Assembly (NCBI GenBank): GCA_902552475.1
Contig: CACDJC010000006.1
Location: 1 to 57,079 of the forward strand
Origin: an uncultured Pelagibacteraceae bacterium
GTDB lineage: Bacteria > Pseudomonadota > Alphaproteobacteria > Pelagibacterales > Pelagibacteraceae
Direction: 5' to 3'
Length of the DNA stretch: 57,079 nucleotides
Every line of letters begins with the position of its first letter. The stretch's first letter is position 1. This document shows positions 2 through 1,375 of this stretch, piece after piece. The notes under the pieces were generated by a model. It was given only the letters and a program-made list of their open reading frames with translations. It did not search any database and was not told the DNA's origin. Made by a program: the position numbers and the translations under genes.

Positions 2-337
2 GAAAATATTAATATTAAATTTCTAAAGAAAAAATATAATCAACAATCAGATGTTAGTATTGGTGATTATAAATTAAATTTAAATGCAAGAATAATTTTT
101 TATAAAAATTACTCTTTGGATTTAACTGAAAAAGAAATACAAATTATTACTTTTCTTAATGATGCCCAAAAACCAGTTAAAGTTAATCAATTACAGTCTA
201 AAGTTTGGGGGCACAATTCCAAATTGGATACCCATACTGTTGAGACACATATTTATAGATTGAGAAAAAAAATAAGTGATACTTTTAAAGATGATGATTT
301 TATTAAAAGCTCAAAGCTTGGTTATAAAATTAAATGA
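2..337 (+). CDS. Response regulator, OmpR/PhoB-type winged-helix C-terminal domain (5' partial)
   Basis: The frame is open from base 2; LTEKEIQIITFL...VWGHNSKLDTHTVETHIYRLRKKI...GYKI is a typical trans_reg_C signature. Confidence 0.85.
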   Translation, partial: ENINIKFLKKKYNQQSDVSIGDYKLNLNARIIFYKNYSLDLTEKEIQIITFLNDAQKPVKVNQLQSKVWGHNSKLDTHTVETHIYRLRKKISDTFKDDDFIKSSKLGYKIK

Positions 338-441
338 AAAAAAAAAATTTTATTGCAAAAGACTTGTTAACAAGAAAATATAAACCACGGATAATTAAAC
401 CTAAAAAAGGAAAAGGCAGTTTTAAAAGAAAAAAGAAATAA
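334..441 (+). CDS. 35-aa basic microprotein, ArfA-like (candidate alternative ribosome-rescue factor)
   Basis: MKKKNFIAKDLLTRKYKPRIIKPKKGKGSFKRKKK*; ATGA overlap with the upstream stop; KGKGSFxRK resembles the ArfA KGKGSYxRK motif. Not in the ORF track. Confidence 0.6.
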   Translation: MKKKNFIAKDLLTRKYKPRIIKPKKGKGSFKRKKK

Positions 442-445
442 TTTT

Positions 446-1375
446 CTAAAGCCTTGCACCGATTTGTTGAATTACTTTTGATGACATTTCTGTACCTTTT
501 TCCAAGCTTTCTTTTAATGACATATTATTTACATGTCCGTGTAAAAAGCCTGCAGCAAAAAGATCACCTGCCCCAGTCAAATCAACAATTTTAAGATCAT
601 GTTTAATTCCACACTCAACAACATTCTTATCATTAATTGCCACTGCACCTTTTTCTCCTCTAGTTATAACTATAGTTTTTCCTAGAGATTTTGAAAAAGT
701 AATTACTTCATCAAAACTTTTTGCGTCAATTAGTGATACAATCTCTTGTTCATTTGCAAAGGTTATATCTAACTTATTTTTAACTAACTCTAAAAAATGA
801 GGTTTATGTCTGTCTACACAAAACTGATCTGATAAAGACATTGCAACTTGGTTTGCGCTTTCGATTGCTTTTTCAAATGCTTTTTTTGGTTCTCCTTCAT
901 CCCAAAGATATCCTTCAAGAAATATTATTTCACTTTTTTTAACAGCATCTGAACTTACATCATTTTCATTTATTTTACCTGCTATACCTAAAAAAGTGCA
1001 CATAGTTCTTTCAGAGTCTGGAGTAACTAATATTAAACAAGTTCCAGTAGGTAATTCTTCTTTCTTTTTTGAATAAAAGTATTTGACATTTTCTTGTTTA
1101 AGTCCATCTTCATATTTGCTTCCAAGCTCATCATCACTAACTTTCCCTATAAATCCAACTTCATTTTCTAGTTGAGATAAACCAACAATAGAGTTGGCCA
1201 CTGATCCTCCTGAAACTGTTTTTTCAATTTTAAGATTAGATAATAGATTTTTAAACTCGTTTTCATCAAAAATTAGTTTCATGGTACTTTTTGTTAAATC
1301 ATTTTTTGTTATAAAATCATCATCTACTTTGCAAATAACGTCTACAATTGCATTACCTATTCCTAAAATTTTCAT
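446..1375 (-). CDS. PfkB-family sugar kinase (adenosine kinase-like)
   Basis: GNAIVDVI start, GGSVANS, DLTGAGDLFAAGFLHG C-terminal PfkB motif. Confidence 0.85.
   Translation of the reverse strand: MKILGIGNAIVDVICKVDDDFITKNDLTKSTMKLIFDENEFKNLLSNLKIEKTVSGGSVANSIVGLSQLENEVGFIGKVSDDELGSKYEDGLKQENVKYFYSKKKEELPTGTCLILVTPDSERTMCTFLGIAGKINENDVSSDAVKKSEIIFLEGYLWDEGEPKKAFEKAIESANQVAMSLSDQFCVDRHKPHFLELVKNKLDITFANEQEIVSLIDAKSFDEVITFSKSLGKTIVITRGEKGAVAINDKNVVECGIKHDLKIVDLTGAGDLFAAGFLHGHVNNMSLKESLEKGTEMSSKVIQQIGARL

Follow-up and report, generated by a model that had tools for sequence, protein, structure and literature searches.

A very short ArfA-family gene of SAR11 bacteria, adjoining a winged-helix regulator gene and shared with marine phages

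In Escherichia coli, the ribosome-rescue factor ArfA (YhdL) is strictly dependent on RF2 (PMC8012679) and binds Trp319 in the switch loop of that release factor (PMC5378476). Its gene is expressed as a non-stop mRNA truncated at a hairpin, so that the product is normally disposed of by tmRNA. The tail of the full-length protein is unstable; ArfA without its last 17-18 residues is fully active, while ArfA shortened to 40 residues is inactive (PMC8012679). Within the protein, Thr7 and Lys8 touch h44, Leu19, Leu24 and Phe25 form the hydrophobic patch that binds RF2, and the A18T substitution abolishes activity (PMC5378476). A 2024 survey of 2,376 Alphaproteobacteria recorded arfA in none and ArfB in 2,022 (PMC11633108). 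Among phages, gp30 of the pelagiphage HTVC027P has previously been called ArfA (PMC12753301).

Here we analyze an arfA-like gene in a 57,079-nucleotide stretch of DNA (hereafter the window) from a SAR11 (Pelagibacteraceae) genome of 1.04 Mb that is 71% complete. The gene lies at 334..441 on the forward strand, and direct translation gives a product of 35 residues, MKKKNFIAKDLLTRKYKPRIIKPKKGKGSFKRKKK, equivalent to about residues 10-44 of E. coli ArfA. Its ATG overlaps the TGA (335-337) of the preceding gene in a four-nucleotide ATGA (334..337, forward strand) that can be read directly, and the codons for KKGKGSFKR, the mRNA-channel motif of ArfA as placed by alignment of 30 relatives and E. 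coli ArfA, occupy 403..429 on the same strand. A first-pass annotation, made from the letters and their open reading frames, had pointed to this ORF as a minimal ArfA in an alphaproteobacterium; its coordinates, translation and overlap are all confirmed, and the host is indeed alphaproteobacterial. The same annotation called the upstream gene a response regulator. The 3′ part of this gene, cut by the contig edge (2..337, forward strand), encodes an OmpR-type winged helix (PF00486, 1.4e-14). However, a full-length homologue matches the Pfam Trans_reg_C (winged helix) model with no match to a receiver domain, and “response regulator” thus describes it only in part. The regulator gene (in a relative, L062:3378-4004) adjoins genes for an L,D-transpeptidase (YkuD) and a YggS-like protein. 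On the other side, a convergent gene for a PfkB-family sugar kinase (446..1375, reverse strand; read here as an ORF, with PF00294 matched at 3.8e-46 in a relative) has its stop 4 nt past that of arfA and is the conserved downstream boundary of the locus. Eleven consecutive A residues directly follow the arfA ATG (337-347), and the longest such runs in relatives are 6-11. We considered these runs as a slippage device and rejected the idea: AAA makes up 0.80-0.85 of the lysine codons in arfA and 0.87 in the kinase gene, and since its share in arfA is not the higher, composition accounts for the runs; the use of lysine codons is typical of the genome.

The assignment to the ArfA family was assessed with family models and with a profile of our own. 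In the HMM search that the first-pass annotation had suggested, the window peptide scored 26.5 bits against Pfam ArfA (PF03889; curated cut-off 25.5), all 30 relatives tested matched the model at E ≤ 0.01, and a relative from genus g5 scored 32.8. Profile A1, built from 30 relatives found by plain protein search with no use of the motif, retrieved nothing from the full set of PDB sequences except E. coli ArfA chains of rescue complexes (E of 3.8e-6 to 1.2e-5), with an ungapped alignment of 33 residues to E. coli residues 12-44; hhalign of the A1 profile with E. coli ArfA gave an E value of 1.1e-6. A single-sequence phmmer search reached the same PDB entries weakly (E of 0.085), and the distant homology thus depends on the profile. 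SAR11 ArfA is lysine-rich and of low complexity. The peptide matched no NCBIfam model, and in PHROGs it matched only families of unknown function. The Pfam score above cut-off and the ungapped profile match, together with the conservation, synteny and selection described below, support the ORF as a genuine member of the ArfA family in a very short form, in keeping with the identity first proposed for it. Beyond that proposal, we found carriage by phages, loss in some SAR11 lineages, absence of ArfB and lack of a tmRNA-gating hairpin.

SAR11 ArfA and E. coli ArfA have in common the KKGKGS[F/Y]xR motif, a basic tail and genomes with RF2, tmRNA and SmpB. They differ in size, with 35 residues against 72; E. 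coli residues 1-9 and 45-72 are absent, and Thr7 and Lys8 have no counterpart, as they fall within the missing N-terminal residues. The SAR11 protein, most often terminating in KKK, stops at the position of residue 44 in E. coli ArfA, slightly beyond the length that fails in E. coli. At the position of A18 it has an almost invariant K9, and the RF2-binding patch L19/L24/F25 is replaced by D10/K15/Y16, in which only the aromatic Tyr16 is clearly kept. These differences make RF2 activation the least certain step of the proposed mechanism. The loci differ as well, in that SAR11 arfA follows a winged-helix regulator gene and resides in an alphaproteobacterium, whereas ArfA is mainly known from gamma- and betaproteobacteria.

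We consider it very probable that the gene encodes a real, minimal ArfA that brings RF2 to non-stop ribosomes and is expressed through coupling to the upstream regulator gene. When a ribosome stalls at the 3′ end of a broken mRNA, its mRNA channel is empty, and the basic tail (KPKKGKGSFKRKKK) would insert there. RF2, recruited and opened by the N-terminal part (KKNxIAKDLxxxKYKPRIV), would then hydrolyze the peptidyl-tRNA. In this account, binding, the need for RF2, the release activity and the way the gene is expressed are predictions. An alternative that starts from the same ancestry is that the peptide is an ArfA descendant that enters the mRNA channel without activating RF2 and acts as a hibernation, anti-stalling or inhibitory peptide. 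The shortening and alteration of the RF2-opening N-terminal minidomain (A18 to K9, L19 to D10, L24 to K15), alongside a retained channel-binding tail, would fit this idea. However, N5, K9, L11, Y16 and R/K19 are strongly conserved, L11 being invariant, which argues that the N-terminal half is itself under selection. The pattern NPxAKxLxxxxY is also common to several phage and other alphaproteobacterial ArfAs, and RF2 is present everywhere, and we therefore regard a non-activating peptide as improbable. Still less likely, in our judgement, is a rescue factor that uses RF1, either alone or alongside RF2, as ArfT of Francisella does. The poor conservation of the RF2-specific hydrophobic patch and the presence of both release factors in these genomes would allow it; against it, the sequence matches ArfA, which was the sole family recovered from the PDB, and E. 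coli ArfA is strictly RF2-dependent (PMC8012679).

Returning to the reading as a minimal, RF2-recruiting ArfA, we asked how widely the gene and its position are conserved. A plain protein search detected the ORF in 30 of 61 relatives. With profile A1, 252 of 298 Pelagibacterales genomes were matched at E ≤ 0.1 and about 224 of the 298 at E ≤ 1e-10 (rows counted); the strong matches span seven genera, and those weaker than E ≤ 1e-10 are mostly something else. In the fetched SAR11 loci, arfA usually lies between the regulator and the convergent PfkB kinase. The first-pass annotation had proposed looking for the ORF downstream of the regulator in related genomes, and it is found there: among 114 relatives with a detectable regulator, 107 have an arfA start -29 to +1 nt from the regulator stop, with -4 the commonest offset (34 cases). 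A different arrangement occurs in genus g5 (G061), where about 1.5 kb, including another gene, separates arfA from the regulator.

The coding sequence itself is constrained. Across 127 distinct arfA sequences dN/dS was about 0.18, with third codon positions the most variable, and G26, G28 and S29 are each encoded by four synonymous codons with the residue fixed, in a sample that is partly biased. In the 30 aligned relatives found without the motif, K24, K25, G26, G28, S29 and R32 are invariant and KKGKGS has a single exception, KGRGS. The motif does not, then, vary freely; this and the conservation of the ORF in relatives are outcomes in favor of the initial reading. In the larger set, where 80 loci were retrieved with the KKGKGS pattern and the others were top scorers, the invariance of the motif is partly a selection effect of choosing loci in this way. 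A chance lysine-rich ORF resembling ArfA by composition, for which one could cite the A- and K-rich SAR11 genomes and a K-rich segment in phage HTVC023P, out of frame, that weakly matches Pfam DUF7230 as proof that such accidents happen, is refuted by this dN/dS, the constant locus and overlap, the clean presence or absence of the gene, and the lack of strong matches in gene-less genomes of similar composition. The ORF is a gene under purifying selection.

The partners that a minimal ArfA would work with or back up were sought in 49 SAR11 genomes. The alphaproteobacterial tmRNA (RF01849) and SmpB were each found in 48 of the 49, and the genome from which the window comes encodes tmRNA, SmpB, RF1 and RF2; its tmRNA was missed by the plain bacterial model RF00023 and found by RF01849. 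RF2 of this genome and its relatives carries SPF, GAGGQ and the switch-loop Trp in GWGHQIRSY. Proteins with an RF-1 domain number at most two per genome, with open frames of 310-379 residues, corresponding to RF1 and RF2. As all are of RF1 or RF2 size, this search revealed no ArfB in the 49 genomes, an unusual combination given how many Alphaproteobacteria in the survey have ArfB. The SAR11 peptide resembles ArfB (YaeJ/ICT1) in the proposed role, backup rescue of non-stop ribosomes; however, ArfB has its own GGQ catalytic (RF-1) domain and the peptide has none. With BrfA of Bacillus it would share the nature of a short, RF2-dependent rescue factor, but BrfA was not matched in the PDB profile search, which gave only ArfA at E values up to 10.

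The control of the gene also appears to differ from that in E. coli. SAR11 arfA has no RNase III/terminator hairpin (mean z of +0.41 over 40 ORFs), compared with z of -3.42 and -19.5 kcal/mol for the E. coli arfA control, and a terminator search within the window found none. With both the self-truncating hairpin and the unstable tail absent, the active short ArfA would be encoded directly. Judging from the overlap, translational coupling to the winged-helix regulator gene probably determines how much of it is made, in place of tmRNA-controlled mRNA truncation.

About a quarter of the sampled Pelagibacterales yielded no strong match, and arfA is thus dispensable in some lineages. Where arfA is missing, the locus is otherwise intact, with -4 to +35 nt between the end of the regulator gene and that of the kinase gene. 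In the kinase tree, the absences are nested among carriers; four changes are needed, at least three of them forced by well-supported branches. The gene has been cleanly deleted at least three times in SAR11. Lineages lacking arfA keep tmRNA, and ArfB was likewise not detected in them. ArfA-less genomes of genus g6 (L317, L320, L307; G065, G265, G086) encode a protein of 35-37 residues starting MKRNPIAKALRTPKFKKKVIKDKKKYNRKK, which belongs to Pfam DUF7230 (PF23876), of unknown function. This small protein has an ArfA-like start (NPxAKxLRTPKF), and some sequences weakly match both models, but it lacks KGKGS and its tail is KYNRKK; DUF7230 may be a distant ArfA-like family. It was confined to genus g6 among 77 genomes searched, and we rejected it as a general substitute in SAR11 without arfA. 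Genomes of a second family of the order, f2 (L308-L316, L318), have conserved ORFs of 42-47 residues, such as MVEKRRLKSNPIARELRTTKYKPHKIQNKKKLQERKRVKIKI, that resemble the N-terminal half of ArfA, have a different tail and match nothing in Pfam.

Across the class, PF03889 was matched in 10 of 386 sampled Alphaproteobacteria, of which three belong to SAR11 and seven are scattered elsewhere in the class. The non-SAR11 matches are mostly short, believable ArfAs, such as MRKVKRRRNPVAARLSKSRFKPKTVLARKGKGSYRRRS; some of these seven (L222, L225-L230) have KGKRAY, KGRKVY, RGKGAY or KGKASY instead of KGKGSY. ArfA is thus present in Alphaproteobacteria, contrary to the survey, though rare outside SAR11. 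That the survey missed it may be due to its use of nucleotide profiles (PMC11633108).

Relatives of the gene also occur in phages. The ArfA profile found them in at least 175 viral stretches, and among the matches listed the cellular neighbors of arfA were absent from all 80 viral loci. Endolysin, tail fibre, GroES or terminase genes lie near arfA in four of the five viral contigs sampled, and the Pfam cut-off was passed by nine of ten viral proteins tested, of 33-48 residues. In many marine phages (IMG/VR, L142-L221) the arfA gene is very short, encoding for instance MKNPMAKSLLDKKYKQRKVKPKKGKGSYKRGSY (33 residues), and some of these genes are near an endolysin gene. HTVC027P, a phage with a SAR11 host, has a PF03889-type core in gp30, NPVAKEVRTPKYKSQIIKPKKGRGSFKR; gp30 differs from SAR11 ArfA in its length (58 residues against 35), its longer N-terminus and its position beside the terminase small subunit. 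Its sequence supports the published ArfA call, yet its score of 20.2 bits is below the Pfam cut-off. A tblastn search of the peptide against named phages gave no match, probably because the low-complexity filter masks the peptide, and known pelagiphages were reached through the neighboring endolysin. In the parts read of HTVC010P, HTVC026P, HTVC112P and HTVC202P, the endolysin has no ArfA next to it. The HTVC023P segment resembling DUF7230 is embedded in a different gene and in another reading frame, and we dismissed it as a chance match.

The ArfA of SAR11 is a short variant with an unexpected distribution; it shows no sign of being controlled as in E. coli, and it is carried by phages. Its function as a rescue factor is the part we predict. 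A broader scenario, which we put forward tentatively, is that SAR11 exchanged ArfB, the common backup in Alphaproteobacteria, for an always-active minimal ArfA that escapes tmRNA-controlled truncation, with its dose set by translational coupling to a winged-helix regulator. This ArfA would be shared with phages and would have been lost more than once, so that some lineages have only trans-translation. Few groups of cells in the ocean are as abundant as SAR11 bacteria, and their class has been recorded as lacking ArfA (PMC11633108). An ArfA of 33-42 residues, if functional, would be close to the smallest workable size of the factor. It would exemplify a version that is not gated by tmRNA, and it would bear on why marine phages carry ArfA. 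Related lineages with and without arfA, with ArfB undetected in all of them, provide a natural comparison for when trans-translation needs a backup.
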